A stretch of 64,000 nt of DNA, taken from the IMG/VR virus record IMGVR_UViG_3300006793_000023, positions 1 through 64,000 of that record. The stretch is one strand, 5' to 3'. Position numbers and translations under genes: made by a program. This DNA is from a virus. Under the pieces are notes generated by a model. That model saw nothing but the letters and a program-made list of their open reading frames with translations. It searched no databases and was not told where the DNA came from. Below, in pieces: positions 26,765-59,715 of this stretch (position 1 is the first letter of the stretch; every line of letters starts with the position of its first letter).

Positions 26765-27478
26765 ATGCCTAAAAAGTTTATAGAAGGAACAGAATTAGTA
26801 AAAGCCGGATTCGCTAACGGTATTTCAACTCAATTAGCAGAGAAACAAAAAGTAGAAGGACCAGAAGCTAGACTTACTGATCATGAAAAGCAAGTTATTA
26901 TAGAAAGAGCAGCTCAAGCTTATGCTGACTTTTTAACTGCTTTAGGATGCGATTACAAAGAAGATCCTAACTCAGCAGATACTCCTTTTAGAGTAGCTAA
27001 AGCTTACGTTAATGATTTATGGGCCGGAAGATATAGTCCTCTAGATAAAATTACAGCATTTCCTTCAGACGGGTATGACGGTATAGTACAAGAGAGTAAC
27101 ATACCTGTAACGTCTATGTGTTCTCACCATCATCAAGCTATTAGAGGTACAGTAAGTATTGCTTATATAGCTTCAGAAGACGGTAAGGTAGTAGGGCTAT
27201 CTAAACTAAATAGAATAGTAGAACAATTCGGTAGAAGAGGAGCTATTCAAGAGCAGTTAACTGTAGCTATTCATAATGCAGTAGATAAGATATGTGAAGG
27301 TAATTTAGGAGTAGCAGTTCAAGTTAATGCAACTCATGCATGTGTATCTTGTAGAGGAGTTAAGCATGGAGGAGCTTCTATGCAGACAGCTAAACTTACT
27401 GGAGCCTTTTTAGACGAACCATCAGCTAAAGCTGAGTTTTATAAAAATATAGAATTAGCAGAAAAATGCAGTCATTAG
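26765..27478 (+). CDS. folE: GTP cyclohydrolase I
   Basis: 237 residues. The C-terminal domain has 'SMCSHHHQAIRGTVSIAYI' (zinc Cys and His, catalytic His), 'VVGLSKLNRIVEQFGRRGAIQEQLT' and 'THACVSCRGV' (second zinc Cys), all standard for FolE. It turns GTP into dihydroneopterin triphosphate, the first step to preQ1. The ~40-residue N-terminal extension is not conserved. Sits directly behind a preQ1-I riboswitch, so the pathway's entry step is probably feedback controlled. Confidence 0.93.
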   Translation: MPKKFIEGTELVKAGFANGISTQLAEKQKVEGPEARLTDHEKQVIIERAAQAYADFLTALGCDYKEDPNSADTPFRVAKAYVNDLWAGRYSPLDKITAFPSDGYDGIVQESNIPVTSMCSHHHQAIRGTVSIAYIASEDGKVVGLSKLNRIVEQFGRRGAIQEQLTVAIHNAVDKICEGNLGVAVQVNATHACVSCRGVKHGGASMQTAKLTGAFLDEPSAKAEFYKNIELAEKCSH

Positions 27479-30702: not shown

Positions 30703-31614
30703 ATGTCAGACGTTAAAAATTATCAAGAAGTAGTAGAAATCGCTTCTAAACATTTAGGGAAAGTAGGAGGAGATGGGTACAAAGATACCTACGCTCCAGA
30801 ACTATTAGTTAAGGTACCCAGGTACTTAAACAGAGAAGGTTATGGATTAACCTCAGATAGCTTTGTAGGAGTAGACACTTGGAATTGCTATGAAGTATCA
30901 GCTATCACAACTAAGGGACTACCAGTAGCAGGTATGTTAAAAATTGTATGTCCTTCAGATAGTGAATATCACGTAGAATCTAAGTCAATTAAACTATACT
31001 TAAATTCATTTAATATGACACGTATAGGAGATAACTCAACAGACTGTATGGCAGTTATAGAAGCAAGAGTAAAGAGAGATTTAGATGAGCTACTAGAAAC
31101 TAACACAACTGTATCTTTCTACTCTTCAGAAGAAGATGGAAAAGCCTTTTCCTTTGAAGGATATACAGATCTTGGAGACATAGTAGATTTAGATCAAATA
31201 GATTTCACAGCGTTTAAATCAGATTCTTCTCAACTTTTAATCGAAGATAACTCAGACGATCCTATCGAAGTTAAGCTTAAATCTAATCTACTTAGATCAA
31301 ATTGTAGAGTAACAAATCAACCAGATTGGGGAGATGTATTTATTAGAATAAATGGTAGAGATGTACCTGCAGTAGATGCTTTAGCAAAGTATATTGTATC
31401 TCATAGAACTGTAAGTCATTTTCATGAAGAGATATGTGAAATGGTATTCAAGCACCTAATGGATGCCTATAAGCCAGAACAGTTAATGGTAGCATGTTTA
31501 TATACTAGAAGAGGAGGATTGGATATTAATCCTGTGAGAGCTACTCATCAAAGCTTGATACCAGACTTTTTTACAAAGCCAGATTTAAGAATTGCTAAAA
31601 CCTTAAGACAGTAG
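30703..31614 (+). CDS. queF: preQ0 reductase QueF (NADPH-dependent, long form)
   Basis: 303 residues. 'YHVESKSIKLYLNSF' is the QueF E-S-K-S-x-K-L-Y-x-x-S-F motif (NADPH site, about residues 89-103). 'SNCRVTNQPDWGD' has the catalytic Cys201 with Asp208 seven residues later. 'IVSHRTVSHFHEEICEMVF' and 'LYTRRGGLDINPVR' complete the tunnelling-fold signature. The length and motif order fit the long two-domain QueF of E. coli type. The enzyme reduces preQ0 to preQ1 with two NADPH. Its presence implies that preQ1, the ligand of the upstream riboswitches, is the base made for DNA. Confidence 0.9.
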   Translation: MSDVKNYQEVVEIASKHLGKVGGDGYKDTYAPELLVKVPRYLNREGYGLTSDSFVGVDTWNCYEVSAITTKGLPVAGMLKIVCPSDSEYHVESKSIKLYLNSFNMTRIGDNSTDCMAVIEARVKRDLDELLETNTTVSFYSSEEDGKAFSFEGYTDLGDIVDLDQIDFTAFKSDSSQLLIEDNSDDPIEVKLKSNLLRSNCRVTNQPDWGDVFIRINGRDVPAVDALAKYIVSHRTVSHFHEEICEMVFKHLMDAYKPEQLMVACLYTRRGGLDINPVRATHQSLIPDFFTKPDLRIAKTLRQ

Positions 31615-35529: not shown

Positions 35530-37467
<1,938 letters not shown>

Positions 37468-37468
<1 letters not shown>

Positions 37469-40213: not shown

Positions 40214-40230
40214 TTTAATCAGTAATATAG

Positions 40231-40254
40231 AGAGGGCGAAAGCCCTCTTTTTAT
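40231..40254 (+). terminator. Rho-independent terminator with GAAA tetraloop
   Basis: AGAGGGC (40231-40237), GAAA loop, GCCCTCT (40242-40248), then TTTTTA. Very stable; ends the small membrane-protein gene. Confidence 0.88.
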
Positions 40255-40462: not shown

Positions 40463-40491
40463 AACTTATAATAAGAAATGCAGTTTACACA

Positions 40492-40500
40492 CTATTTATA
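40492..40500 (+). promoter_or_regulatory. CTATTTATA motif before the T9SS-type repeat gene
   Basis: Lies 40 bases before the ATG at 40541. An in-frame ATG at 40478 precedes the motif and would add a non-signal extension, so 40541 is favoured. Candidate late promoter element. Confidence 0.35.
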
Positions 40501-40540
40501 TTTAAACAAAAGTTTAGTTTACAAAAAAATTAAGAATAAC

Positions 40541-43500
40541 ATGAAAAAATTATTACTTTGGTTATGCTTTATGCTTCCTTTTTTGAACATAGCCCAAGAA
40601 ACAGCACCCGTAACCTTTAGATTCGATGTTAATTCCATAATCGAAAGTATCCCCAACCCAGAACAAGCCAATGTGTATATCCAAACCAGTGTTACTGGAT
40701 GGAGTGATATACCAATGGAAGATGTTGGAGGTAATGGGATTTACAGAAAAAATATTAATATAGGTCACCCAACAGATGAAAATGTAGAGGTATTTTATAG
40801 ATTTAAGATAACATCTTTTGGTAATAATGGACTACCCTGGACACCATGGGAAGGAGGAAATAACTCTAATTTAGGAGACTGTGCTTTTCCCGCAGTTAGT
40901 ATCGGCCTTTCAGGGGGAATGGTAAGAGATGTAATAGTACCACAAGAATTAATAGATAACGGTACTTACGTAAATCCTTCAGGAGAATATAAATTAACTC
41001 ATTGTTTTAATGTATGTGGTAATGAACCTTGTCCACCAGAACCTTGTGTGGACGGTTTAATATCATCAAATGCTTATCAACAATGTGTAGAGAATACTCA
41101 AGCTTTAATAGTTTTTGAATGGGAGACAGAATGTCAAGTAGAGTCTGTATCCTACTCTAATGTAGAAGGAGCAGGACCTTTTATTTATACTGTTAATCCT
41201 GATGCAACTAACTTTGGAGTTTATGCTGGTAATGGACAGATGCCCCCTAATTGGAGTGTAGAACATCAGTTAGTTGTTAACTTTGCAGATGGTACATCAT
41301 CTGATCCTATTTTATATACCCCAACCCCTTGTATACCAGGCTGTACAGATCCTAATTCAGATGCTTATAACCCATGGGCAACAGTAGACGATGGTTCTTG
41401 TTCTGGAACAAATTGCGACCCAGATACTGAACACCAAATAACAATGCAGATTACATTAGATGACTGGCCTAATGAAACTTCATGGACAATGAATAGTGGA
41501 GGTATTATAGGAGCAGTTACAAATGGAACATATAATTTTAATGATATAGGAAAAACATTTACCTATAATTTCTGTATAGATAAAAATGTAGGATTTGAAT
41601 TTATTATTAACGATACTTACGGAGACGGTATAGCAGGTTCTACCTCAGGTGGAACTATAGATGGCTCAGTAAAAATATATGACTGTAATGGCGATATTAT
41701 TTGGGAACTACCAGATCCTAATTTTGGAGAAGTAGCTTATTCAGGTCAACAGTTTGGAGTTGACTGTGAAGGTACAGAAGAAATTTATGGTTGTACAGAT
41801 CCAGCTTATCAGTCATATAATCCAGATGCTACTATAGATGATGGTTCTTGTTCTGAATTACATATAGTAGGATGTATGGATGAGGATTCAATTAACTACA
41901 ATCCAGATGCTACAAAACAAGAATTAGTTCCTGTTTGTGAATATAACTTAGTAGTAAGAGATGCAGCATCAGATGGATGGGGGAATTCTTTTATAGGAGT
42001 TGCTCAAGGAGGAGTTAGTTTAGGAACTTATACTTTAGGGCCTGGAATAGAAGAACAGATTTGGCCACTAAGCTTAAATTCAGATGAAGAAGTAGTAGTA
42101 TATTACTTCGAAGTAGGTAATCCTCAAACTACCCCAGAAGAATTAAATTTCCAAACTTTACAAAATTCATTCCTTATAGTAGATTCAGATGAACAAGTAC
42201 TACTAGATGGTGGTACTAATCCATTCGAAAATAACGGTCAAGGAGCATTACAAAACTTTGAAGCACCATTCTTTGAAAACTATTCAGCTTTACCATTCTG
42301 CGGTACAGTTTGTATTCCAATAGTAGAAGGGTGTATGGATGAAACTTCGTTAAATTACAACCCTGAAGCTAATGTAGATGATGGTAGCTGTATTCCTTAT
42401 ATTGAAGGATGTATGAACCCATTAGCATTTAACTACAACCCAGATGCTACAGTAGATGATGGTTCTTGTGTTGAAGTAATTGTAGGATGTATGGACCCAG
42501 ATTCATTTAACTACAACCCAGAAGCTAACACCCCAGGTGACTGTATTCCAGTTATAGAAGGATGTATGGATCCAACATCATTTAACTATAATGAAAACGC
42601 AAATGTAGATGATGGTTCATGTATACCTGTAATAGAAGGGTGTATGGATGTAAATTCAATTAATTATAATCCTGATGCTAATACTGATGATGGAAGTTGT
42701 ATTCCAATTGTAGAAGGTTGTACAGATCCTGACTCATTTAACTACAATCCAGATGCTAATGTAGATGATGGTTCTTGTATACCTGTAGTCTTCGGATGTA
42801 CAGATCCAGATGCATTTAACTACAATCCAGATGCTAATACAGATAATGGAACTTGTGAACCAGTAGTCTTTGGATGTACAGATCCAGATGCATTTAACTA
42901 CAATCCAAATGCTAATACAGATAACGGTACATGCATTCCGGTAATACTTGGATGTACTGACAATACAGCATTTAACTACAATCCAGATGCTAATACAGAT
43001 GATGGTTCTTGTATACCTATTTTAGCAGGCTGTACAGATCCAGATGCATTTAATTATAATCCATTAGCAAATACTGACGATGGTTCTTGTGTTCCTGTAA
43101 TTTTAGGATGTACAGATAATACAGCATTAAACTATAATCCAGACGCTAACGTAGATGATGGAAGCTGTGTTCCTATTCTATACGGATGTATGGACCCAGA
43201 TTCATTTAACTATAATCCACTTGCAACTGTAGACGATGGTAGCTGTATTCCTATAGTAACAGGTTGTACAGACCCAGATGCATTAAATTATAATCCTGAT
43301 GCTAACACAGAAGATTTTAGTTGTATAGAAAAAGTTTACGGATGTATGGATCCTAACTCGATAAATTATGATCCTGAAGCTAATATAGATAACGGTAGTT
43401 GTATAACAGCTGTCGTAGGATGTATGGATCCAGAATCATATAATTTTAATCCAGAAGCTAACGTTTCAGATCCGGATGCTTGTTTATATGATGCAGGTTG

Positions 43501-43903
43501 TATAGACGGTCCTGGTAATCCATACTGGTTAAATAATAACTGTTATGCTTGGGTAATTGATGTCGATCAGTATTGCTGTGATAATGAATTTGACTCTATA
43601 TGTCAAGACATGTATAACTATTGTGAAAATGGATTTCCTGAAGGATTTGATCTAAATTCAATACAGTCGTTATTTTCTAGATTTACTTCTATAGTTGTTT
43701 ACCCTAATCCATCTAAAGGAGTATTGAATATAACATCTGACATCGAAGGAATAACTTATGAAGTAAGAGATATACTAGGTAAGCTTATCATACCAGAGAC
43801 ACTAGGATCTGAAGTAGACCTATCAGCTGCAAAATCAGGAGTGTATTTTCTTCAGATAAAAAATGGTACACAAACTTATAATAAAAGAATAATTATAGAA
43901 TAA
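40541..43903 (+). CDS. Secreted Cys-rich repeat protein with type IX secretion (T9SS) sorting domain
   Basis: 1120 residues from the ATG giving a signal peptide (MKKLLLWLCFMLPFLNIAQ, cut near residue 19). An N-terminal beta-rich domain is followed by 18 units of the pattern G-C-x-D-x-x-x-x-N-Y-N-P-x-A-x-x-D-D-G-S-C. The first three units are separated by inserted domains ('DTYGDGIAGS', 'DAASDGWGNSF') and the last 15 are tandem. After a Cys-rich linker, the final ~75 residues ('VVYPNPSKGVLNI', 'YEVRDILGKLI', 'LSAAKSGVYFLQI') are a T9SS type A sorting domain, which directs proteins across the outer membrane of Bacteroidota. It would be exported by the host and displayed or released. Followed 1 base later by an outer-membrane-like protein. 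Candidate late-type element upstream. Confidence 0.85.
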   Translation: MKKLLLWLCFMLPFLNIAQETAPVTFRFDVNSIIESIPNPEQANVYIQTSVTGWSDIPMEDVGGNGIYRKNINIGHPTDENVEVFYRFKITSFGNNGLPWTPWEGGNNSNLGDCAFPAVSIGLSGGMVRDVIVPQELIDNGTYVNPSGEYKLTHCFNVCGNEPCPPEPCVDGLISSNAYQQCVENTQALIVFEWETECQVESVSYSNVEGAGPFIYTVNPDATNFGVYAGNGQMPPNWSVEHQLVVNFADGTSSDPILYTPTPCIPGCTDPNSDAYNPWATVDDGSCSGTNCDPDTEHQITMQITLDDWPNETSWTMNSGGIIGAVTNGTYNFNDIGKTFTYNFCIDKNVGFEFIINDTYGDGIAGSTSGGTIDGSVKIYDCNGDIIWELPDPNFGEVAYSGQQFGVDCEGTEEIYGCTDPAYQSYNPDATIDDGSCSELHIVGCMDEDSINYNPDATKQELVPVCEYNLVVRDAASDGWGNSFIGVAQGGVSLGTYTLGPGIEEQIWPLSLNSDEEVVVYYFEVGNPQTTPEELNFQTLQNSFLIVDSDEQVLLDGGTNPFENNGQGALQNFEAPFFENYSALPFCGTVCIPIVEGCMDETSLNYNPEANVDDGSCIPYIEGCMNPLAFNYNPDATVDDGSCVEVIVGCMDPDSFNYNPEANTPGDCIPVIEGCMDPTSFNYNENANVDDGSCIPVIEGCMDVNSINYNPDANTDDGSCIPIVEGCTDPDSFNYNPDANVDDGSCIPVVFGCTDPDAFNYNPDANTDNGTCEPVVFGCTDPDAFNYNPNANTDNGTCIPVILGCTDNTAFNYNPDANTDDGSCIPILAGCTDPDAFNYNPLANTDDGSCVPVILGCTDNTALNYNPDANVDDGSCVPILYGCMDPDSFNYNPLATVDDGSCIPIVTGCTDPDALNYNPDANTEDFSCIEKVYGCMDPNSINYDPEANIDNGSCITAVVGCMDPESYNFNPEANVSDPDACLYDAGCIDGPGNPYWLNNNCYAWVIDVDQYCCDNEFDSICQDMYNYCENGFPEGFDLNSIQSLFSRFTSIVVYPNPSKGVLNITSDIEGITYEVRDILGKLIIPETLGSEVDLSAAKSGVYFLQIKNGTQTYNKRIIIE
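42329..43495 (+). repeat. 15 tandem coding repeats of 26 residues (78 bases)
   Basis: Fourteen units of 26 residues and one of 25 (third unit) give exactly 389 residues. Each has two Cys, near the start and end. Units 7 and 8 (about 42794-42949) are nearly identical in DNA, showing recent duplication; outer units are more diverged. Confidence 0.92.
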
Positions 43904-43904
43904 A

Positions 43905-44972
43905 ATGAGAAAATTATTAATATTACTTTTAGTAATCCCGTTTTTAGGTTTTAGTCAAAACTCTGAATCTAAATTTAAGAAAGAATTAAAGAAAACCCTT
44001 AAATTTTCAACTATATTTGCTGCAATTAATGGAGGTACTTCATTAGCAGATAAAAATACCTACTCAGTAAATACAGGTACTTTAATACCAGGGGTAATTG
44101 AAACACCATTTGATTATTCTCTATCTCTAGGTATTAGAAAAATAGCTAGATTTCAATATGAAAATAGAGAAAATGTATTTTATAACGGTACAGAAGAATC
44201 TTATTCAGATAATGCTACGTTAGGTAGGATAAAAGGATTTGAATTCTTATTCGAAGCTGATTACAGAAGAATTCAAGGTATTAAATATTTAGATCAACAT
44301 CATTTCTTGAGATATGTAGCCGACGATTGGGTTGCTAAAGTAGAGTACTTAGTAGGAGGTTTTATTGATATAGAATATTTTCAAGCTTCTCAAAGATATA
44401 AGAAGAACATTACTAAAGAGTTTTCTGTTAACGTAGGAGCAGCACAAAGGTTAGCTCAACCTTACGGATATGATCCTCTACAAGAGTGGATGTTAAGTAA
44501 TGGTAATTTACATTATACATGGCTTGCTATTCAAGAAGGATATGAAGTTCAATTTGATGGAACAGGAGGAGAAACCTATTTAGACCCTTCAGGTAATGTT
44601 GTAGCAACAAGTACTGAAGTATGGGAGGAAGTAGTTATTCCTCAAGTATTAGTTAACTATGTAGATAAGAAAACAGATGCTGCTCCATTGAGATTAGAGT
44701 ACTCTTTAATATTTGGATTTGATTATTATAAGTATACGAAGAACTTTTGGCTTCATGCTTGGGGGAATGTAATGCCTTATCATATACAGACAGGTGATCA
44801 ATTTTCTTTTCATAACTATAATGGAGGACAGTGGATAGACTACTCAGGCGGTTTAATATTCGGCTATAAATTAACAAAATCTTTAGGATTGTTTGCTGAA
44901 GGAACGTATAATCAATATTGGAATAGAAACTGGCATAATTTTTCAATGGGTGTAAATTATATTATATTTTAA
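43905..44972 (+). CDS. Outer-membrane beta-barrel-like protein
   Basis: 355 residues with a signal peptide (about 1-17, ending 'LGFSQ'). The body alternates aromatic and polar residues in beta-strand style ('GFEFLFEADYRRIQGIKYL', 'FGFDYYKYTKNFWLHAWGNV', 'LGLFAEGTYNQYWNRNW') and ends in 'MGVNYIIF', a terminal Phe as required for BAM-assembled barrels. It begins 1 base after the T9SS-type gene, so they are surely co-transcribed. In F. johnsoniae, T9SS adhesins such as SprB are paired with an outer-membrane protein gene (SprF); a similar pairing is inferred here, although sequence similarity to SprF/PorP is not apparent. Confidence 0.65.
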   Translation: MRKLLILLLVIPFLGFSQNSESKFKKELKKTLKFSTIFAAINGGTSLADKNTYSVNTGTLIPGVIETPFDYSLSLGIRKIARFQYENRENVFYNGTEESYSDNATLGRIKGFEFLFEADYRRIQGIKYLDQHHFLRYVADDWVAKVEYLVGGFIDIEYFQASQRYKKNITKEFSVNVGAAQRLAQPYGYDPLQEWMLSNGNLHYTWLAIQEGYEVQFDGTGGETYLDPSGNVVATSTEVWEEVVIPQVLVNYVDKKTDAAPLRLEYSLIFGFDYYKYTKNFWLHAWGNVMPYHIQTGDQFSFHNYNGGQWIDYSGGLIFGYKLTKSLGLFAEGTYNQYWNRNWHNFSMGVNYIIF

Positions 44973-44975
44973 AAA

Positions 44976-45260
44976 ATGGCAAAAGAATTAAGCGAAAATA
45001 CTAGTTTTCAAATAAGCATACAAACATTAATAGGTATTGCATTCGGTATAGCTACAGTAGTAGGTATGTGGTTTGCTCTTCAAGCAGATATAGAAGAAGC
45101 AAAAGAGCTGCCAGTTGCTCCACCACCAGATGTTACAAGGATGGAATATGATATGAAAGATCAATTGATTCGTCAAACAATTATGTCCACGCAAGAAGAT
45201 GTGCAGGAGTTGAAAGAAGACATGAAACGTATTGAAGATAAGATTGATAAATTAAGATAA
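44976..45260 (+). CDS. Small membrane protein with cytoplasmic or periplasmic coiled coil
   Basis: 94 residues: one membrane helix (about 14-36), a Pro-rich 'VAPPPD' hinge, then a charged coiled coil ('DVQELKEDMKRIEDKIDKLR'). The type is frequent in marine phages near lysis genes and resembles an i-spanin or holin accessory in shape. Function not assigned. Confidence 0.5.
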   Translation: MAKELSENTSFQISIQTLIGIAFGIATVVGMWFALQADIEEAKELPVAPPPDVTRMEYDMKDQLIRQTIMSTQEDVQELKEDMKRIEDKIDKLR

Positions 45261-45266
45261 TTTATT

Positions 45267-45596
45267 ATGAAAAAATTTATACTCGGTAGTTTACTTTTAC
45301 TAACCTCACATTTAATGTTTGGTCAAGTAGGAGTAAAATACTTTAATGCAGGATGGAATAAAGCAAACGACATAGAATGGGTAAGTAAATTATCTGACTG
45401 TGAATTAGAAAGATTTGATATAGGAGCTGACCCATCTCTTGCAGCAAAATATAAAGTAGTAGTAGTACCTACTGTAATTATTTTTCAAGATGGAGAAGAA
45501 GCAGAAAGATTTCAAGCAGACATTAGTTTTAAAATGGCTGCTACTAAAGAAGATGTACAAGATTATATTGATGAACTTATAATGAGTGCATTTTAA
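45267..45596 (+). CDS. Exported thioredoxin-fold protein lacking the CxxC site
   Basis: 109 residues, signal peptide (about 1-19, ending 'MFGQ'). The thioredoxin fold is recognisable from 'VGVKYFNAGWNK' and the cis-Pro loop 'VVVVPTVIIFQDG', but the W-C-x-x-C position reads G-W-N-K-A-N. One Cys occurs elsewhere (SDCELERF). A redox-inactive exported thioredoxin may act as a binding or chaperone protein in the periplasm. Lies among envelope-directed genes. Confidence 0.65.
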   Translation: MKKFILGSLLLLTSHLMFGQVGVKYFNAGWNKANDIEWVSKLSDCELERFDIGADPSLAAKYKVVVVPTVIIFQDGEEAERFQADISFKMAATKEDVQDYIDELIMSAF

Positions 45597-45638: not shown

Positions 45639-45893
45639 ATGATAAACTATTTAAAACGTAAATGGATGGCATTTAAAAATTTATTTGATGATGATAATAA
45701 CATCAACGAAAAATCCGTAGTAGGGTTTTTAGCATTTACCGTAATGGTAATATTTGCTGTAGCAGACTTAGTAACTGGGTATATTGGAAAAGATTTAGTT
45801 ATCAATGAATTTATATATGATTCTTTCGTATGGATTGTATTAGGAGCATTTGGAATTGCAGAAGTAGGTAAGATATTTGGAAAAAAAGAATAA
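45639..45893 (+). CDS. Holin-like two-helix membrane protein
   Basis: 84 residues with two hydrophobic helices (about 27-47 and 58-77) and charged ends; the tail is 'KIFGKKE'. Size and topology fit a class II holin, and an exported protein and a wall hydrolase-like gene follow within 500 bases. A holin role is inferred from this arrangement. No sequence signature proves it. Confidence 0.55.
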   Translation: MINYLKRKWMAFKNLFDDDNNINEKSVVGFLAFTVMVIFAVADLVTGYIGKDLVINEFIYDSFVWIVLGAFGIAEVGKIFGKKE

Positions 45894-46320: not shown

Positions 46321-46929
46321 ATGAGTTGTTATACTAGAGAAGAGATAGAAGAAGTAATGAAAGCTAAAGGCTATAAATACTTTACAGGAGGAGACTATGA
46401 TGTTAATATAGTAGGAGTTAGAAATTCAGGTACTAAAGGAAGAGTTACAAATGCCTTTGATGACTGTATTACCGTATCATATAAAGTAGAAGGGGAATGG
46501 AAATTCCATTGCTTTAAAGCTACAACTGATCCCGGTTCTCACTGGGAGCAAAACCTTTTAAACGAAAAAGGAGTAGCAATTCTTAAACCAGGTCAGTATA
46601 GAGGTTCTCATAAGCTCAGGCTACATCAAGGGAAGTACTTAGCTTTAGGACAAAAATCCCCAGTTAAAGTATACAGAGATAATAATAGAGATGGTAAATA
46701 CGACCTCTTAGAAGAGAATGTTGATGAAGGAATTTTTGGAATTAACATTCATAGAGCTACAGGACGTTCTGGAGGTAAATCCATAAGAGTAGATAAATGG
46801 TCAGCTGGATGTCAAGTTATTGCTTCTAATGATGATTGGCATGAATTTTTAGATATATGTCAAACTGCAAGAGAAATTTGGGGTAATTCATTTACATATA
46901 CGCTTATAGAAAGCAAAGATATTTCATAA
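46321..46929 (+). CDS. Putative endolysin, stand-alone copy of the hub C-terminal domain
   Basis: 202 residues without a signal peptide. It aligns over its length with the C-terminal domain of the hub-like protein at 4253: shared 'NIVGVRN', 'ATTDPGSHW', 'VAILKPGQY', 'VYRDNNRDGKYD', 'GINIHRATG' and 'KWSAGCQV'. The conserved His and Cys (S-A-G-C) are likely catalytic, in a way reminiscent of L,D-transpeptidase or carboxypeptidase folds. Following a holin-like gene, it is the best endolysin candidate. The enzyme class is not proven. Confidence 0.65.
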   Translation: MSCYTREEIEEVMKAKGYKYFTGGDYDVNIVGVRNSGTKGRVTNAFDDCITVSYKVEGEWKFHCFKATTDPGSHWEQNLLNEKGVAILKPGQYRGSHKLRLHQGKYLALGQKSPVKVYRDNNRDGKYDLLEENVDEGIFGINIHRATGRSGGKSIRVDKWSAGCQVIASNDDWHEFLDICQTAREIWGNSFTYTLIESKDIS

Positions 46930-51095: not shown

Positions 51096-52541
51096 ATGAA
51101 AAATAAGTTTCGTTACCTAAAGCAAGAAGATCGTAAAAAAATCTTACTTCTCTGTGATGATATTAGAATGAATTCCGGTATAGGGAATATGGCAAAAGAA
51201 ATAGTTTTAGGTTCAGCTCACCATTTTAATTGGGTTAATTTAGGAGCAGCATTAAAACATCCTGATGAAGGTAAAGCATTTGACTTATCAGCGCAAGTTA
51301 ACCAAGAGGTGGAAATAGAGGATGCTTATGTAAGATTAATTCCTTCAACAGGTTATGGAGACCCTAAAAAAGTAAGGGAGGTAATAGCAGTTGAAAACCC
51401 TGATGCTATTTTAATATTTACTGATCCTAGATATTGGACTTGGTTATTTGAAATGGAAAGAGAAATAAGATCTAAAATTCCAATTTTTTGGCTAAACATA
51501 TGGGATGACTATCCAGCTCCTCTTTATAATAAGCCGTACTACGAATCTGTAGATGTTTTGATGGCTATTTCTAAACAGACGAAAAATATAAATGAAATAG
51601 TATTAGGAGATAAAGCAAAGGAAAAGATTATTGAGTATGTTCCACACGGTATAAATACTAAACATTTCTTTCCTATTGAGGAAGGTACTGAGAATTACGA
51701 TAAACTAGTAGACTTTAAAAAAGCAGTTTTAAATAATAAGGATATAGAGTTTGTTTTATTTTACAATTCTAGAAATATTCGTAGAAAAAGCACAGCAGAT
51801 ACTATATTGGCTTACAGGTTATTCTGTGATAGGATAGGTAAAGAAAAAGCAAAAAAATGTGCTTTCATCCTACATACAACTCCTAAAGATCAACATGGTA
51901 CAGATTTGAAAGCTGTCAGAGAAGCATTCTGTGACCCAAGTTACGTTAATGTATTCTTCTCTTCAGATAAATTATCAGTAGCGCAACTAAATCTACTGTA
52001 TAATATGGCAGATGCCACTATTCTTCTTTCTTCTAATGAAGGTTGGGGATTATCCCTTACAGAATCGTTAGTGACTGCTACCCCTATAATAGCTAATGTT
52101 ACAGGTGGAATGCAAGATCAAATGAGATTTGAATCCGACGGTAAATGGATAGATTTTACTCCTGATTTTCCTTCTAACCATAGAGGTACGATTAAAAAAT
52201 GCGGAGAATGGGCTACCCCTATCTTTCCTTCCAACACATCAATAGTAGGTTCTTTACCAACTCCTTATATATTCGATGATAGATGTTCACCTGAAGATGC
52301 CGCCGCAGCAATAGAAAAAGTCTATAACTTATCAGACGAAGAGAGACGTACTGCAGGAAAAGCTGGATATAAATGGGCATTAGGAGACGAAGCTAGGCTT
52401 ACAGCAGAGGGTATGAGTAATAGAGTTATAGAGGTATTAGATAAAGGGTTTAATGAATTTACTCCAAGAAAGTCATTTGATTTTCATTTAATAAAAGATA
52501 TAGAAGCAAATTATATAGAACATAAATTAACAGGTTATTAA
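51096..52541 (+). CDS. Glycosyltransferase, GT-B fold (GT4-like)
   Basis: 481 residues. The N-terminal half opens 'KILLLCDDIRMNSGIGNMAKEI' (a GT-B 'S-G-x-G-x-x-x-x-x-x' loop), and the C-terminal half has 'LNLLYNMADATILLSSNEGWGLSLTES', the E-G-x-G-L-x-x-x-E donor-binding motif of GT4-like enzymes. First gene of a cluster of sugar-handling genes reaching to 60.6 kb. Substrate unknown. Confidence 0.82.
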   Translation: MKNKFRYLKQEDRKKILLLCDDIRMNSGIGNMAKEIVLGSAHHFNWVNLGAALKHPDEGKAFDLSAQVNQEVEIEDAYVRLIPSTGYGDPKKVREVIAVENPDAILIFTDPRYWTWLFEMEREIRSKIPIFWLNIWDDYPAPLYNKPYYESVDVLMAISKQTKNINEIVLGDKAKEKIIEYVPHGINTKHFFPIEEGTENYDKLVDFKKAVLNNKDIEFVLFYNSRNIRRKSTADTILAYRLFCDRIGKEKAKKCAFILHTTPKDQHGTDLKAVREAFCDPSYVNVFFSSDKLSVAQLNLLYNMADATILLSSNEGWGLSLTESLVTATPIIANVTGGMQDQMRFESDGKWIDFTPDFPSNHRGTIKKCGEWATPIFPSNTSIVGSLPTPYIFDDRCSPEDAAAAIEKVYNLSDEERRTAGKAGYKWALGDEARLTAEGMSNRVIEVLDKGFNEFTPRKSFDFHLIKDIEANYIEHKLTGY

Positions 52542-52542
52542 G

Positions 52543-53832
52543 ATGAGCAAACCAAGTATAGTTGTAAGCTGCCCAGTAGATACATATAGCGGGTACGGAG
52601 CAAGAGCAAGAGATTTTGTTAAAGCATTAATAGATATAGATGAGTACGATGTTAAGATATTAGCTCAAAGATGGGGCGAAACCAGATGGGGATATTTAGC
52701 CGACCATAAAGATACTGTACTGACACCTAGAATAATTAACCAATTAACGAAACAACCAGATGTATGGATTCAAATATCAATTCCTAATGAATTCCAAAAG
52801 GTAGGTAAGTATAATATAGGAGTTACAGCAGGTATAGAAACTACCTTATGTGATCCTTCTTGGATTAAAGGAGCAAACAATATGGACTTAATACTAGCTT
52901 CATCTAACCATTCTGTAGAATCTTTCAAAAGAAGTAAGTACGATATTAAAGATGATAGAACTGGTCAGATAAAAGACCAACTAGAATTAACTACTAAGAT
53001 AGAGGTACTATTTGAAGGAGCAGACTTATCTAAATACTTCCCAATTTCAAAATCTAGAAGTTTAACCGATATAGAAAAGAGGTTAGATACGATACCTGAA
53101 TCATTTTGTTTCCTAACTACAGGACACTGGATGCAAGGAGAATTTGGAGAAGATAGGAAGAACTTAGGAGTCACTATCAAATCGTTTTTAGAAACATTTA
53201 AAAACAAAAAAAATAAACCTGCATTAATAATGAAATGTCATAGTATGACTACTTCTATAATGGATAGGGAAAGAATATTAGAACGTATAGATTCTATAAG
53301 AAGCACAGTCAAAGGAAGCCTTCCTAATATATACCTCCTACACGGAGAAGTATCTGATACTGAAATGAATTTGCTTTACAACCACCCTAAAGTAAAAGCA
53401 TTTGTTTCCCTACCGAAAGGAGAAGGATTTGGAAGACCGTTTCTAGAGTTTAGTTTAGTAAATAAGCCAATAATTGCTTCTTTCTGGTCAGGTCAAAAAG
53501 ACTTTCTTAACGTAGATTTCACTAAATTTATCAGCGGTCAACTTAAACCAGTTCACTCTTCAGCAGTAGTTAAGAATATTATACTAAAAGAATCTGAATG
53601 GTTTACTCCTGATCCTATAGAGATAGGAAAAGCATATAAAGAAGTATATAAGAATTATAAAAAGTGGGCCAGTAAAGCTAAGAGACAGGGACATAAGAAT
53701 AGAGCTGAGTTTAGTTTTGACGCAATGACAGAAGTCTTAAAAGAGTTACTAAAAAATAATTTACCAGAATTTCCTAAGCAGGTAGAATTAACTTTACCTA
53801 AACTAGAGCTACCTAAATTAAAGATGATATGA
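52543..53832 (+). CDS. Glycosyltransferase, GT-B fold
   Basis: 429 residues. The N-terminus 'VVSCPVDTYSGYGARARDFV' resembles GT4 acceptor-side loops; 'FVSLPKGEGFGRPFLEFSLVNKPIIAS' is the donor-site E-G-x-G-x-x-x-x-E motif. A C-terminal Leu/Pro tail ('LTLPKLELPKLKMI') may be a docking peptide. Starts one base after the first glycosyltransferase gene and overlaps the methyltransferase gene by 4 bases. Confidence 0.78.
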   Translation: MSKPSIVVSCPVDTYSGYGARARDFVKALIDIDEYDVKILAQRWGETRWGYLADHKDTVLTPRIINQLTKQPDVWIQISIPNEFQKVGKYNIGVTAGIETTLCDPSWIKGANNMDLILASSNHSVESFKRSKYDIKDDRTGQIKDQLELTTKIEVLFEGADLSKYFPISKSRSLTDIEKRLDTIPESFCFLTTGHWMQGEFGEDRKNLGVTIKSFLETFKNKKNKPALIMKCHSMTTSIMDRERILERIDSIRSTVKGSLPNIYLLHGEVSDTEMNLLYNHPKVKAFVSLPKGEGFGRPFLEFSLVNKPIIASFWSGQKDFLNVDFTKFISGQLKPVHSSAVVKNIILKESEWFTPDPIEIGKAYKEVYKNYKKWASKAKRQGHKNRAEFSFDAMTEVLKELLKNNLPEFPKQVELTLPKLELPKLKMI

Positions 53833-54560
53833 TAAGAACAGACGGAGATAGAGAATTATTAGATGATCCAAATTTATCTATTATTAAAAACCATCAGGCA
53901 AAGTATGGGGGTTTAGGTATTGGAGTAGAAGAATGGGATGTAGAAAAAGATAGTAGGGTATTAGAGTCTTCCTGGGTTGCCAGGTATAACCATGAAGCTA
54001 ATATACTGTGTAATATAATTAAAGACAATAATATTTCTAAGGTATTAGAACTAGGTAGCGGCCCAGGAAGATTAGCAGATACTATCCAAAAAGGATTAGA
54101 TTCAGAGATTATTTACGACTTAGTAGATAAACCAAACGCTAAATTACAAAATGATAAATTTAATTATAAATGTAATAAATTCTTTGTTAAAGATCTTAAC
54201 AATGGATTTGACACTAGCGGTTTAGAAGATGAATATGATCTTATTATTGCTAATGACTTTTTAGAACATATTGCTAATGTAACAGACTGTTTAGTAAGCT
54301 GTTACAATAAAGGCTCAGACAACAGTAAGTTATTCATAAGTGTTCCAAACTGGCGTATGGGTCATTCATTTCAATATAGGGGATTATTTGATTATGATAA
54401 TTGGGTTTATACTATGGAGGTACATGGTTGGAAAGTAGAAGGAGTATATAATTCTAATTTAGCATGTAAGTATGCTGATAAATTATCATCAGAGAGTTCT
54501 ATGCCTGATCAATTAATACAGTCATGGAATTGGTATTTTCTAGCATCTAAAAAAATATAG
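53829..54560 (+). CDS. SAM-dependent methyltransferase, class I
   Basis: 243 residues. 'VLELGSGPGRLADTI' is motif I (E/D-x-G-x-G-x-G) and 'YDLIIANDFLEHI' is motif IV-like. Within a glycan cluster it probably methylates a sugar or a lipid carrier. DNA methylation cannot be excluded, but no N-P-P-Y motif is present. Confidence 0.75.
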   Translation: MIRTDGDRELLDDPNLSIIKNHQAKYGGLGIGVEEWDVEKDSRVLESSWVARYNHEANILCNIIKDNNISKVLELGSGPGRLADTIQKGLDSEIIYDLVDKPNAKLQNDKFNYKCNKFFVKDLNNGFDTSGLEDEYDLIIANDFLEHIANVTDCLVSCYNKGSDNSKLFISVPNWRMGHSFQYRGLFDYDNWVYTMEVHGWKVEGVYNSNLACKYADKLSSESSMPDQLIQSWNWYFLASKKI

Positions 54561-54585
54561 TAATAAAAATTAAATAAGTTATAGT

Positions 54586-55035
54586 ATGAATAAAGATAAA
54601 TTAGTAGAAGGTCCTTTTGGCAGTAATGCATGTTATGAACAGACTTTTGATAATAATGGTGAATCTGTAACAACATGGCTATGTTTTGGTAGCGGTTTTA
54701 CTACATCCACTTTAATGACTAAAAATAGCCCTACAGTAGAGAACGCTATTAAAACTTCCCCAGAACTCTACAAAGACCTAATGTTTGAAGATACAAACGG
54801 AAGAGTATGGTTACCAGCTACAATTACACTTCCAGAAAAAGGTATGGTATTTATTGACGGTACCTCAAAAGAGAATTGGAAGTGGGCTGGTGTAAAAGCT
54901 ATACCTATATCTGAACAAGATAAGAAAGTAGATGAAAATCAGACTCATAAAATGGATATGAAAAACTTAAAACATTTTGAGCAGAAAGATTTTATGGAAG
55001 CTGCAGATTTTATAGGAATGTTTAGTTTAGTATAA
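54586..55035 (+). CDS. Hypothetical protein in glycan cluster
   Basis: 149 residues, soluble, with aromatic-rich beta stretches ('GRVWLPATITLPEKGMVFIDG', 'ENWKWAGVKAIPI'). It has 'AAGTTATAG' before the ATG. Similar proteins occur near structural and modification genes in T4-like marine phages; no function recalled. Confidence 0.55.
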   Translation: MNKDKLVEGPFGSNACYEQTFDNNGESVTTWLCFGSGFTTSTLMTKNSPTVENAIKTSPELYKDLMFEDTNGRVWLPATITLPEKGMVFIDGTSKENWKWAGVKAIPISEQDKKVDENQTHKMDMKNLKHFEQKDFMEAADFIGMFSLV

Positions 55036-55045
55036 ATATATTTCG

Positions 55046-55052
55046 TATATTA
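55046..55052 (+). promoter_or_regulatory. Extended -10 (TTTCG-TATATTA), leaderless
   Basis: Strong TTTCGTATATTA but no good -35 (55022-55026 reads TTAGT-like). The ATG at 55058 is 5 bases later. Confidence 0.42.
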
Positions 55053-55057
55053 TTAGT

Positions 55058-55681
55058 ATGAAAATAAGTTATGCAATAACAGTTTGTAACGAATACGAAG
55101 AGATTCAAAAGTTAATATCTACTCTGATGTTAAATACAAATGAGGAAGATGAGGTAATAGTCCTATTTGATAAAAAAGCTGGAACAGCAGAAGTATGGGA
55201 ATACTTAGTAGGACTTCAAAGCCAAGACTTAATTAAAGCATACCCTAAAACTTTTAAAGGGCACTTCGCAGATTGGAAAAACCATCTTTCAAGTTTATGC
55301 TCTGGAGATTTTATATTTCAAATTGATGCTGATGAATACCCTAGTGAGGAGTTACTAAAAACACTTCCATTTTTACTTGAGATGAATAAAGATGTCGATG
55401 TAATATTAGTTCCGAGAGTAAATACGGTAGAGGGTTTAACTCAAGATCATATTGCTAAATGGAGATGGAGTGTTAACGAAAAAAATTGGGTAAATTGGCC
55501 TGACTATCAGTGGAGAATATATAAAAACTTAGATAAAATTAAATGGATTAATAAAGTTCATGAACGTTTAGACGGATTCGATCAATATGCTACACTGCCT
55601 ATGGAAGAAGGTTTTGCTCTCTACCACCATAAAGGTATCGAGAGGCAAGAAAAGCAAAATAATTTCTACGATACATTGTAG
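55058..55681 (+). CDS. Glycosyltransferase, GT-A fold (GT2-like)
   Basis: 207 residues. 'ISYAITVCNEYEEIQKLISTL' is the GT2 opening and 'GDFIFQIDADEYPSEELL' carries the D-x-D metal motif. 'RIYKN...KWINKVHERLDGF' fits the acceptor region of short GT2-like enzymes acting on lipid or protein sugars. The predicted start coincides with the leaderless promoter. Confidence 0.78.
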   Translation: MKISYAITVCNEYEEIQKLISTLMLNTNEEDEVIVLFDKKAGTAEVWEYLVGLQSQDLIKAYPKTFKGHFADWKNHLSSLCSGDFIFQIDADEYPSEELLKTLPFLLEMNKDVDVILVPRVNTVEGLTQDHIAKWRWSVNEKNWVNWPDYQWRIYKNLDKIKWINKVHERLDGFDQYATLPMEEGFALYHHKGIERQEKQNNFYDTL

Positions 55682-55716
55682 TAATAGTTATAAATAAAAA
55701 TTAAATAATTTTATAG

Positions 55717-56349
55717 ATGAGTAAAGATTTAGTAGTATATATTGCACATATAGATGATTTTGAGTGTGCAGTCTACGGGTACGTTTTAAATCACTATAAG
55801 AAGTATAATAAAGTTAAAATTATTACTGCTACAACATGGCCAGCTAAAGTTAAAGTATGGGAAAAGAATAAAAGTGAATTTCCTGAAGAGCTTCAAGATA
55901 AGTTAGTAGATATTAACTTAGGGTATGAAGCAAGAACTTTGTGGAAAAATCTAGACGATATGAAAGATGACTTTTATAAGTTGATGGACTTTTCTTCTAG
56001 GTTTGACCTGATATCTCACGATTCAGCAGACTGTCATACAGATCATACAGCTTGTTTCGCTGTAGCTAAAGGAATGTACAAGTACTGTAACAGGTTTATA
56101 ACTATATATTCTCCTTCTTCTGCTGGATTAAACCCTAATTTCTTCGTAGGTATGACTGAAGAACAGTATAGTATTAAAAAGAAAGCATTAGATAGGTACG
56201 ATATTCAAAAAGAACAATCGTATACAAAGTTAGGGTACTATTTACAAAGTGAGGAACATTATAACATAGGAAGAGCTCATGTATTAGAAAATTACGTATT
56301 TGACGACTATCCGTATTATGAAGTTTATAAGATACTAAAATGGTTATAA
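55717..56349 (+). CDS. PIG-L/LmbE-type deacetylase-like protein
   Basis: 210 residues. 'VYIAHIDDFECAVYGYV' is the A-H-P-D-D-E motif with substitutions (A-H-I-D-D-F-E), and 'ISHDSADCHTDHTACF' supplies the H-x-D-H metal ligands. The family removes acetyl groups from N-acetylglucosamine-type sugars. Within the cluster it would act on an amino sugar. The substitution of Pro by Ile is unusual. Confidence 0.7.
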   Translation: MSKDLVVYIAHIDDFECAVYGYVLNHYKKYNKVKIITATTWPAKVKVWEKNKSEFPEELQDKLVDINLGYEARTLWKNLDDMKDDFYKLMDFSSRFDLISHDSADCHTDHTACFAVAKGMYKYCNRFITIYSPSSAGLNPNFFVGMTEEQYSIKKKALDRYDIQKEQSYTKLGYYLQSEEHYNIGRAHVLENYVFDDYPYYEVYKILKWL

Positions 56350-56915
56350 GTATTCATCAACCAGAGCATTTTCCCTATATGGGATACTTTCAAAAAATGG
56401 CTGAAGCAGATATGTTTGTCATTTTAGATAATGTTAATTACAGGAAAAACTACTACCAGAATAGAAATAGGTTTTTAAATACTAATGGAGTTGAAGAATG
56501 GTTTTCTATACCAGTAGAGAAAGATGCTACTAAAAAGTGGATCAAAGATGTAGCAGTTAACAACAGCCAAAATTGGCGCAAAAAACTACTAACTAAATTA
56601 AATCAAAATTTTAAATTAGATTTAGAATATGTATACGATTCTTCTAATTTATTAGAAATAAATACTAGAAGTATAGAGTGGGGTAGAGATAAACTAGGAA
56701 TAAAAGTTCCTATAGTAAATGCTTCAGACCTAGGTGTATCTGGAAATAAAAGTGAGTTACTAGCTAATATATGTAATAAGTTAAACGCTACTAAATACAT
56801 ATCAGGCCCAAGCGGAAAAGACTACCTAGACTTAAGTTACTTTAATGGAATAGAAGTTGAGTTTTTTTCACCAAAAGTTGATAATTACTTTAGCAGTTTA
56901 TATAATTTAAGTTAA
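56340..56915 (+). CDS. WbqC-like family protein
   Basis: 191 residues. 'VISIHQPEHFPYMGYFQKM', 'MFVILDNVNYRKNYYQNRNRF' and 'YISGPSGKDYLDLSYF' are the WbqC family pattern, found in surface-polysaccharide clusters of Bacteroidota and proteobacteria. Exact chemistry is not known to me; roles in sugar-aminoacyl transfer have been suggested. Overlaps the deacetylase gene by 10 bases. Confidence 0.78.
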   Translation: MVISIHQPEHFPYMGYFQKMAEADMFVILDNVNYRKNYYQNRNRFLNTNGVEEWFSIPVEKDATKKWIKDVAVNNSQNWRKKLLTKLNQNFKLDLEYVYDSSNLLEINTRSIEWGRDKLGIKVPIVNASDLGVSGNKSELLANICNKLNATKYISGPSGKDYLDLSYFNGIEVEFFSPKVDNYFSSLYNLS

Positions 56916-57895
56916 TGGATATACGTTACGCAACATCAGAAATGGAATTTGCAGGTAAACTACCTGATAACTATCCATACATGAGAGTATTAGAAACACA
57001 GTTACGTTTTTTAGATTTAGATCATATTCCACTATTTCATATTCTTCAATCAGACACTAAATACGAAGGAGGTATTATGTTTAATATAGGTAAAGGAGGA
57101 TTAGATAAAGCTTATATCAATATCCTTTACAGTAAATTTAATAATGTAGTAGAGCAACTTAAATCTAAATTTAGTAAAGTATACATTTATCAAGATGGAG
57201 AAATAGGTTGGTGGAATCAAACAGATGTTAAATTGCAAGTATGGTGGTATAATCAACTATCCTCATCAGACGGTATACTAGTTCCAAATTCTACAGATGT
57301 CTGTTTTTATAGAGGCATCTTTAAAGACATACCAGTACGTGTTATAAGAAGTGTAATGACTGATGTAGGTTTAGATAATACAAAATTTAAAGAGAAATCA
57401 GGTAGAACAATTATTACAGGGCCTTTAACAAGAGAGTATAACGGATTAGTACAGGTTTTATTAGCACATAATTATGGACTTCCTATTGATATTCCTCCTA
57501 TGGGACAGAGCAGAATGCCAAAAGATTCGTGGGAGATGGCTAATAACATCGGGGTTAGGTACCTTCCTTATATGTCATGGATAGAATGGATGTATAATCT
57601 CAATCAATATGAACTAGGGTATATGATGTCTACCGCAACAGCTTCTGGATCTTTTGCTTTGAATTGTGCATACTTAGGCATCCCGTGCATAGGAGATAAA
57701 AGAGCAGATACACAATCAATGCTTTTTCCTGACTTAGCAGTGAATAGTCTAGATACTCAAACAGCATTAGAGTTAACCCTTAAACTTAAAAAGGATAAAG
57801 AATTTTACAACTCAGTTATTAAGAAAGCTAAGTTGGTACTAAAAGAAGAATTTAATAAAAGTAAAATGTTAAAAGTATTGTATGAAAATAATTAG
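56915..57895 (+). CDS. Probable GT-B type glycosyltransferase
   Basis: 326 residues. No classical catalytic motif is obvious; 'TATASGSFALNCAYLGIPCIGD' near the C-terminus resembles the donor-side loop of GT-B enzymes, and 'GRTIITGPLTREYNGL' could start the second Rossmann half. The gene lies between WbqC-like and sialyltransferase-like genes and shares a base with each neighbour. Function probable from context. Confidence 0.55.
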   Translation: MDIRYATSEMEFAGKLPDNYPYMRVLETQLRFLDLDHIPLFHILQSDTKYEGGIMFNIGKGGLDKAYINILYSKFNNVVEQLKSKFSKVYIYQDGEIGWWNQTDVKLQVWWYNQLSSSDGILVPNSTDVCFYRGIFKDIPVRVIRSVMTDVGLDNTKFKEKSGRTIITGPLTREYNGLVQVLLAHNYGLPIDIPPMGQSRMPKDSWEMANNIGVRYLPYMSWIEWMYNLNQYELGYMMSTATASGSFALNCAYLGIPCIGDKRADTQSMLFPDLAVNSLDTQTALELTLKLKKDKEFYNSVIKKAKLVLKEEFNKSKMLKVLYENN

Positions 57896-58553
57896 TAGTG
57901 AAGATATCTTTTCGTTAATTAAAGATAAAGATATATCAATTGTTGGTTCATCTCCTGAACTCAAAGGTAGTGGATTAGGATCCAAAATAGATTCTAATGA
58001 TATAGTAGTAAGATTTAACGATGCATTATTATTTTACAAAGATAATAAAGAAGACTACGGAAGTAAGTGTAACATATATGCAACATCTGGTTGGAGTCCC
58101 GATTTTAATGAAACTAATTCGTTAGACAAACATAAAAGCAATATAGACTTAAATAGTACATATATTCTTGGAACAAGACCTTTAGATAATAGTAATGTAG
58201 AACAACTTAAGAGAGGGTTAATAATGAGAGGACCGGTATTTAACTGGGTAAGTCAAGTTGAATGTAACTTCATCAGTATGCCTAATGAGGTATTTAATTT
58301 ACCTATTTTAAACGGTAATTTTAATTTAAGTAGTGGAATAGCAACTTTACTTCTTATATTACATTTTAATCCAAAAAGTATTTCAATGTTTGGGTTTAAC
58401 TTTTTTAATCATAAAAAACCAACTCACTTCTGGAATAATGATTTTTTCTATACAGAAGATTCTGTAAGAAAAAAAGAAGGTCATGATGGTAGTTTTGAAA
58501 AAGGGTTAGTAGTAGAATTATGTAAAAACTTTAATATTAAAGTACATGAATAA
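57882..58553 (+). CDS. GT29-like sialyltransferase
   Basis: 223 residues. 'DISIVGSSPELKGSGLGSKI' and 'DIVVRFNDALLFY' correspond to the L-sialylmotif (V-G-x-x-x-x-L-x-x-S-x-x-G-x-x-I-D-x-x-D-x-V-x-R-F-N). 'FNLSSGIATLLLILHF' and 'ISMFGFNFF' correspond to the S-motif (P-S-S-G-x-x...V-x-x-y-G-F), and 'KKEGHDGSFEKGLV' may hold the III/VS His-Glu pair. The family transfers sialic acid or related nonulosonates. Length is close to the minimal catalytic domain. Strong similarity in pattern, unusual for a phage. Confidence 0.72.
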   Translation: MKIISSEDIFSLIKDKDISIVGSSPELKGSGLGSKIDSNDIVVRFNDALLFYKDNKEDYGSKCNIYATSGWSPDFNETNSLDKHKSNIDLNSTYILGTRPLDNSNVEQLKRGLIMRGPVFNWVSQVECNFISMPNEVFNLPILNGNFNLSSGIATLLLILHFNPKSISMFGFNFFNHKKPTHFWNNDFFYTEDSVRKKEGHDGSFEKGLVVELCKNFNIKVHE

Positions 58554-59715
58554 TAAAATTACATTTGTTATACCTTCAAGAAATAACTTAGAATTCTTGC
58601 AGTTAGCATATAAATCTATCCGTAACTTGGAAATAAAACACGAAGTACTAATCTTAAACGATGCTTCTACAGACGGTACACAAGAATGGATAGAACAGCA
58701 AAAAGACGAAGACCTCATCACTTATAACAATCCAGGCCCTGAACGTATAGGAATCGTAGGTATGTTTGATAAAGGAATCGAAATGGCACGTACAGATATA
58801 ATTATGGCGTTTCATGCCGATATGGTTGCATGTAAGGATTTCGATAAAAATATTCTAAAACATTTAGATAAAGGAAAGGTAGTTACAGGTACAAGAGTAG
58901 AACCACCTCTACACCCAGACGGTCCAGAAAAACTTTTACTTAATTTTGGAATAGAAGCAAACGAGTTTAATTTTGATATTTGGTACAAAGAAAGTGAAAA
59001 AGTAAAAGAAGATAAAACAACTGAAGGGATCTTTGCACCTTGGTGTATGTATAAAGAAGACTTCTTAGCTATAGGTGGTCATGACGAATTATTTGCTCCA
59101 CAATCAAAAGAAGATTCAGACTTATTCAATAGATTTCAACTTAACGGATATAAATTTATACAACCCTGGGATGCTTTAGTTTATCATTTTACTTCTAGAG
59201 GTTCAAGATTTAATAAACATGCAGGAGGAAGCGCAGGAAAGAACTCAAATGAGTGGATTCAAACTACAACTAAAAATGGTAGAAACTTTATTCGTAAGTG
59301 GGGACATTTTATTAAACATACTCCGTTAATGAAGCCTATCATACCTCCTAAATACGATATTGGGTTTATTGTTAAAAATTGTAATTCAAATTTATTAGAA
59401 CTTTTAGAGCCATGGTGTAATAACATATACATTGAAGACGAAATGCAAGTTATTACTATAGATTATTTTGAAAAAGAAAAAAATAATACTCTATATGATT
59501 TAAGTGAGAGAATCAAACCATACGATAACGAAAAACAAAATGAAATTTTAGTACGGTTGGATGCAGCATCGTTTACTCAAGCTGACTTTCAAATTATACA
59601 ACAACTTTCAGAGATAATAAAAGATAGCGGTCAAATCGGTTCATTTAAATTAGGAAACTTTATAGTAGATATAATACAGATGAATGAATATCAAAACAAT
59701 TTAATTAAAGTATGA
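58546..59715 (+). CDS. Glycosyltransferase, GT2 family, with C-terminal extension
   Basis: 389 residues. 'ITFVIPSRNNLEFLQLAYKSI' is the opening, 'ILNDASTDGTQEWIEQ' the nucleotide-binding part, and 'DIIMAFHADMVACKDFD' the metal site, here H-A-D rather than D-x-D. The core covers about residues 1-240; the rest (about 240-389) is acidic and helical and not recognised. It may be a partner-binding domain. Confidence 0.78.
   Translation: MNNKITFVIPSRNNLEFLQLAYKSIRNLEIKHEVLILNDASTDGTQEWIEQQKDEDLITYNNPGPERIGIVGMFDKGIEMARTDIIMAFHADMVACKDFDKNILKHLDKGKVVTGTRVEPPLHPDGPEKLLLNFGIEANEFNFDIWYKESEKVKEDKTTEGIFAPWCMYKEDFLAIGGHDELFAPQSKEDSDLFNRFQLNGYKFIQPWDALVYHFTSRGSRFNKHAGGSAGKNSNEWIQTTTKNGRNFIRKWGHFIKHTPLMKPIIPPKYDIGFIVKNCNSNLLELLEPWCNNIYIEDEMQVITIDYFEKEKNNTLYDLSERIKPYDNEKQNEILVRLDAASFTQADFQIIQQLSEIIKDSGQIGSFKLGNFIVDIIQMNEYQNNLIKV

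Follow-up and report, generated by a model that had tools for sequence, protein, structure and literature searches.

Proteins that carry a Sec signal peptide and a C-terminal domain (CTD) of the TIGR04183 family are exported by the type IX secretion system (T9SS) through the SprA translocon with PorV as shuttle, and these type A cargos normally rely on the host's PorV and do without a cognate barrel (PMC12618676). Type B cargos of F. johnsoniae, such as SprB, have a gene for a PorP/SprF-like barrel directly downstream of their own, and this barrel is required for secretion of the cargo and has been proposed as its surface anchor (PMC12618676, PMC9143113).

Phages have been connected with the system before. 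Bellas et al. 2020 found Cryophage proteins that end in T9SS type A sorting domains and are thought to hijack the host system, with cargos (endoglucanase, GH39 and PA14) encoded by highly variable metagenomic-island genes (PMC7468147). The crAss-BACON paper from 2019 places T9SS domains near BACON genes (PMC6949934). The idea of a phage T9SS cargo is therefore not new, and these reports correct the first-pass annotation of the DNA considered here, which knew of no standard phage function of this kind.

The DNA in question, called the window, is a stretch of 64,000 nucleotides from an IMG/VR viral record of 71,620 bp. It encodes a large repeat protein, here called the cargo, which like the Cryophage proteins is phage-encoded and has a T9SS CTD, but which is non-enzymatic, belongs to a cassette that is conserved throughout a group of marine phages and is accompanied by an apparently phage-specific barrel. 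The cluster 2 ORFs in the crAss-BACON excerpts are likewise tandem-repeat phage proteins, once with a T9SS sorting domain; they differ in having BACON repeats, in belonging to crAss-like phages and in lying beside head genes, and these excerpts note no barrel partner (PMC6949934). With the SprB-SprF pair the window shares the arrangement of a large, repetitive, putative surface adhesin with a barrel gene directly downstream, but the phage CTD is of type A (TIGR04183) or a second kind of tail rather than TIGR04131, and the barrel falls outside the PorP/SprF model (PMC12618676, PMC9143113). What is new is the conserved set of four genes, including a barrel of its own, on which a literature search found no paper. 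A paper on an endolysin-SprA fusion (PMC12628812) is engineering work and irrelevant.

The cargo gene and its sorting domain

The longest open frame around the cargo gene extends from 40478 to 43903 on the + strand, but translation is likely to start at the ATG at 40541, since relatives (e.g., L008) begin with MKKLLLWLC. From the N-terminus the protein consists of a signal peptide, an N-terminal domain, beta-sandwich domains, 18 Cys repeats, a Cys-rich domain and the type A CTD:

40541..43903, + strand: cargo gene (1120 aa), predicted T9SS cargo from its ORF, HMM matches and repeat count
40541..40597, + strand: predicted Sec signal peptide MKKLLLWLCFMLPFLNIAQ, read from the sequence
41339..43465, + strand: 18 GC[TM][DN]...YNP...DDGSC units, in a run interrupted by two beta-domains
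43475..43624, + strand: 50-aa Cys-rich domain (CLYDAGC...CYAWVIDVDxYCC...WD..CQ..YNYC) between repeats and CTD
43697..43900, + strand: T9SS type A sorting domain (Por_Secre_tail), above cut-off for TIGR04183 and PF18962

In the cargo the repeat has the form GC[TM][DN]..x.NYNPxA..DDGSC, also written GCxD/N...YNP...C, and the count of 18 is made up of 16 units found by regular expression and two with variant spelling (aa 267 and aa 417) that were read directly. The N-terminal domain is E-set/CBM-like, as named by eye. Its structure prediction was poor (pLDDT 62, and below 50 for aa 1-148 of the modelled fragment), and Foldseek with this model gave generic FN3/Ig-like matches and nothing more. 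A Pfam search found no catalytic domain in the window cargo.

Residues 1053-1120 match TIGR04183 with 47.4 bits (cut-off 23, E 1.4e-12), and the match spans model positions 1-72 of 72 and ends at residue 1120 of 1120. For PF18962 the C-terminus scores 47.7 bits (cut-off 27, E 2e-12). The signal peptide, the 18 Cys repeats and the type A domain that the first-pass annotation had read are thus confirmed by sequence reading, regular expression and HMM, both profiles being above cut-off. TIGR04183 is matched in 17/17 full-length relatives scanned, and above-cut-off matches occur in 11/11 large related viral contigs tested; from this follows that the match is not due to chance. The type B model TIGR04131 was matched neither by the window protein nor by 16 relatives. 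Between close pairs of relatives the dN/dS of the CTD is 0.06-0.17, and in distant pairs, many of which have a high dS, it reaches up to 0.56; for the barrel the range is 0.03-0.12. The CTD is under purifying selection.

Phage group and source of the modules

The window contains phage genes for polymerase, helicase, ribonucleotide reductase, exonuclease and GroEL, and a related 119-kb contig (G001) carries T4-type major head, tail sheath, tail tube and baseplate genes, so that the relatives are contractile-tail phages. The phage origin of the DNA, as first assumed, is borne out by these two sets of genes and by the IMG/VR record itself. Related contigs are as long as ~178 kb. Terminase_6N is present in only 2/11 contigs and was therefore left out of the classification.

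Several other features of the window may be recorded here. Genes resembling those for QueC, QueE and GTP cyclohydrolase occur at 19558-20346, 24279-25145, 26765-27478 and 30703-31614, and this set suggests 7-deazaguanine DNA modification. For the interval 28-52 kb the sole megablast similarity to an isolate phage is to Flavobacterium phage immuto (72%, ~30.2-31.6 kb). Phage-encoded GroES-like and GroEL proteins are found at 35530-37468. A run of glycosyltransferase/sugar-metabolism-like genes at 51096-60614, in an order that is partly common to related contigs, may act on the surface glycans of virion or host.

A close cassette sits on a contig binned into the Flavobacteriales MAG G012, although binning is no proof of host. 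This MAG has 42 TIGR04183 matches and contains the repeats, some of the N-terminal domains and both tail types seen among the cargos; as it includes the binned phage contig with its cassette, the phage itself accounts for part of its matches to phage queries. Relatives of the repeats are found in the Bacteroidota genomes G012 (C27), G059 and G055. Host Flavobacteriales T9SS proteins, such as G012 C27, share both the GCxD...NYNP...DDGSC repeats and the secretion signals, but these counterparts are chromosomal, and the phage Cys-rich domain, barrel and cassette are absent from, or weakly matched in, the sampled genomes. The Cys-rich domain gave weak matches in G059 only, and the barrel had no relatives in 296 Bacteroidota genomes other than G012; within the genomes sampled, the barrel thus appears to be phage-specific. 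The cargo accordingly looks as if it had been built from host-type T9SS modules around a phage-specific core.

The repeat by itself is uninformative on export. Cyanophages have the GCxD...NYNP Cys repeat in virion proteins of the tail region that carry no export signals, as in S-CAM3 (L103 4572-6122) and L102 (AG-345-P14); the S-CAM3 proteins, which are annotated as virion structural and adjoin a short tail fibre gene, have neither signal peptide nor CTD. The claim that a phage here codes for a T9SS cargo is supported by the CTD match, the signal peptides, the purifying selection and the host counterparts of the modules, and export of the cargo via the host T9SS is judged very probable from these sequence features.

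A conserved four-gene cassette

The cargo gene stands as the first-pass annotation described it, but it is not a single gene on its own: it is one of four linked genes, which include that of the barrel. Neither the barrel nor the Cys-rich domain figured in that annotation. The neighbourhood contains the following features:

40229..40250, + strand: terminator-like hairpin and T-run upstream of the cassette, from a consensus scan only
43905..44972, + strand: predicted 355-aa outer-membrane beta-barrel, apparently phage-specific, with signal peptide and terminal F
44976..45260, + strand: 94-aa protein with one N-terminal membrane helix and a charged coiled-coil-like tail, read from sequence
45267..45596, + strand: 109-aa signal-peptide protein, thioredoxin-like, in which the CxxC site is replaced by N-A-x-W-N (alignment)
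45639..45893, + strand: small membrane protein of 84 aa, called holin-like only for its size and hydrophobicity
46321..46929, + strand: endolysin-like protein (phrog_3000, phrog_33083 endolysin)

The hairpin marks a possible operon boundary. A promoter scan gave fewer sites than shuffled sequences and was uninformative. The 84-aa protein has no family match and adjoins the cassette in many relatives. The C-terminal domain of a 1285-aa protein at 4253-8110 belongs to the same phrog_3000 family as the endolysin-like protein.

The barrel gene begins one base past the stop codon of the cargo gene. Its AlphaFold model, of moderate confidence (pLDDT 67), has about 12 strands, and the Foldseek matches are NanC/KdgM porins, BamA, FapF and further outer-membrane barrels, so the 355-aa protein is predicted to be an outer-membrane beta-barrel; a good match (E 5e-25) was also obtained with A0A516LKJ4, an unnamed viral protein. 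Membership of the PorP/SprF or PorV families was rejected, as 17 members gave no match to a model of these families in NCBIfam at E up to 1, and a Pfam search with the window barrel had no match. No useful solved relatives of the barrel or of the Cys-rich domain were found by sequence. Among the INPHARED isolate phages neither the barrel nor the 94-aa protein was found, and the matches of the thioredoxin-like protein were ordinary phage thioredoxins only. This 109-aa protein matches PF00085 (E 4e-4) and TIGR01068 (E 5e-5), both below cut-off. The N-A-x-W-N motif of this predicted periplasmic protein is conserved, and its gene is linked to those of cargo and barrel.

Cargo, barrel, 94-aa protein and thioredoxin-like protein form a conserved four-gene cassette. 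IMG/VR was scanned with family alignments, each family being used as a separate starting point. Every scan yielded a lower bound on the number of relatives, which is 457 for the 94-aa protein, 555 for the thioredoxin-like protein, 584 for the barrel and 578 for the Cys-rich domain. When all query genes are combined, the four genes occur together in 92/94 well-flanked loci, i.e., loci with at least 8 kb on either side, but because contigs overlap and close relatives are favoured, such counts are not independent samples of phage diversity. All four were present in 22/24 loci with the 94-aa protein as query, in 26/26 with the thioredoxin-like protein and in 22/22 with the barrel; the other three genes accompanied the cargo in all 22 long loci retrieved via its Cys-rich domain, and the 94-aa protein was linked in every well-flanked barrel locus. 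The cargo gene lies immediately upstream of the barrel gene in 44/70 loci. According to subgroup, the order is cargo-barrel-94-aa-thioredoxin-like, 94-aa-thioredoxin-like-cargo-barrel or barrel-94-aa-thioredoxin-like-cargo, and that the linkage holds while the order permutes argues for a shared function over simple inheritance. A 245-kb contig, IMGVR_UViG_3300030098_004828 (L040, L042), has two different copies of the cassette ~119 kb apart; two phages may have been assembled into one here.

Within the cassette it is the cargo that varies. Full-length cargos have 606 to 1375 aa and 6 to 27 repeats, and a signal peptide, called by a crude rule, is predicted in 99/99 cargo ORFs with closed 5' ends. 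Their N-terminal domains fall into CUB-like (81), MAM-like (7) and, as in the window, E-set-like (10) groups, where MAM is a Pfam match (5e-20) and the other two were named by eye. Variable N-terminal modules on a conserved stalk and end are what would be expected of surface adhesins. The Cys-rich domain, present in 193/202 cargo ORFs (redundant loci counted), is the best-conserved part of the cargo and is retained with either type of tail.

By family HMM the tail is of type A in 58/70 unique well-flanked loci. The other 12 were at first candidates for cassettes without cargo, which was rejected because they have a repeat cargo with another tail, ending in ITDLLGRPV...LLFIYDDGSVIRKIK or a close variant (e.g., L231:12479-12613, L241:11954-12088 and similar) and located downstream of the thioredoxin-like gene in the loci inspected. 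Five such tails were recognized by neither NCBIfam nor Pfam. The same tail occurs at 12 places in G012, some of them on proteins with a visible signal peptide, and since this MAG is rich in TIGR04183 it is likely to be a second sorting tail, possibly an uncatalogued T9SS sorting signal. The barrel tree shows at least 6 switches of tail type. The barrel therefore does not track CTD type, and its interpretation as a CTD-type-specific shuttle is weakened. At L193:9311-10549 a further protein with a signal peptide adjoins the cargo; its matches are AhpC/TSA-like and SprB-repeat, and it has a short tail of a similar kind. Some phages may thus carry more than one T9SS-type cargo.

Proposed export route, barrel partnership and benefit

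The best explanation of the locus as a whole, given a probability of about 0.55, is that the cargo is exported by the host T9SS with assistance from the barrel and remodels the surface of the infected cell late in infection. The signal peptide would direct the cargo through Sec into the periplasm, SprA and PorV, the translocon and shuttle of the host, would recognize the CTD, and the disulphide-rich repeat protein would be displayed on, or released from, the infected cell surface. The barrel and the membrane-anchored and periplasmic proteins would probably retain, guide or position the cargo, in a role modelled on the SprF-type barrels whose genes immediately follow those of type B cargos. For this partnership of cargo and barrel the odds are put a little below even. 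When the tail switches while the Cys-rich domain stays constant, it also follows that this domain, rather than the CTD, is the likelier point of contact with the barrel, if there is any contact.

Late remodelling would chiefly bar the adsorption of other phages or of the phage's own progeny; adhesion or aggregation would be an alternative benefit of a surface cargo. Receptor blocking by T5 Llp is of this kind: a phage-encoded envelope protein stops adsorption to the infected cell or to debris, but Llp is a small lipoprotein without T9SS and is likened to the cargo by putative role alone. In the window's subgroup the cassette adjoins lysis-type genes, which suggests late expression, and for this reason a block of adsorption is ranked first among the benefits, followed by lysis or release and then by adhesion or nutrient capture. 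This ranking is the least certain part of the argument, and surface exclusion as the main benefit is proposed as a possible rather than a probable outcome. Against the best explanation, the cassettes of some relatives adjoin tail-fibre-like or virion-like genes rather than lysis genes. The switches of tail type on the barrel tree, the independence of type A cargos from a cognate barrel, the cyanophage virion proteins with the same repeat and the moderate confidence of the barrel model also count against it.

The neighbouring lysis-type genes also allow an unlikely alternative, in which the cassette cooperates with holin and endolysin and breaches or loosens the outer membrane, replacing spanins, or frees progeny from debris. 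Many relatives have the order cargo-barrel-94-aa-thioredoxin-like-holin-like, often followed by endolysin, and the products, whose predicted locations run from inner membrane and periplasm to outer membrane and surface, would jointly span the envelope; but a large, variable surface adhesin is unnecessary for lysis, other subgroups have the cassette apart from the holin and endolysin genes, and weak spanin matches are found on other window proteins. It is improbable that the cargo is a T9SS enzyme or binding protein of the host that was picked up by chance and gives infected cells adhesion or polysaccharide capture. The close host counterparts of the repeat and N-terminal modules, the MAM domains on some cargos and the glycoside hydrolases among Cryophage cargos (PMC7468147) are in line with such an origin, but no catalytic domain is detected in the window cargo, and the strong conservation and linkage throughout the phage group speak for a function fixed in the phages rather than a recent chance gain. 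Least probable is a virion protein, i.e., a tail or baseplate decoration with host-like modules and a CTD that is a passenger or a dock to the host surface, since, for all that S-CAM3 has the same repeat in virion structural proteins beside a short tail fibre gene and the cassette adjoins virion-like genes in relatives L042 and L063, the signal peptide found throughout the cargos is needless for virion proteins assembled in the cytoplasm, the S-CAM3 proteins lack it together with the CTD, and the cargo is linked to an outer-membrane barrel and lies outside the head-tail-baseplate modules in the window's subgroup.

Returning to T9SS export with late surface remodelling, the four genes may tentatively be seen as a complete phage surface-display module, in which a borrowed T9SS translocon would be combined with the phage's own barrel, periplasmic and inner-membrane proteins in an envelope-spanning and lineage-fixed arrangement. 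If the best explanation is true, an abundant group of marine Bacteroidota phages routinely rebuilds the surface of the infected cell through the host T9SS with a dedicated barrel partner. Phage infection would then be linked to T9SS biology, surface exclusion in Bacteroidota would gain a testable route, and both new CTD/barrel pairs and a sorting tail that seems to be uncatalogued would become available for study. What was a one-paragraph suggestion in 2020 becomes a defined, conserved gene set.
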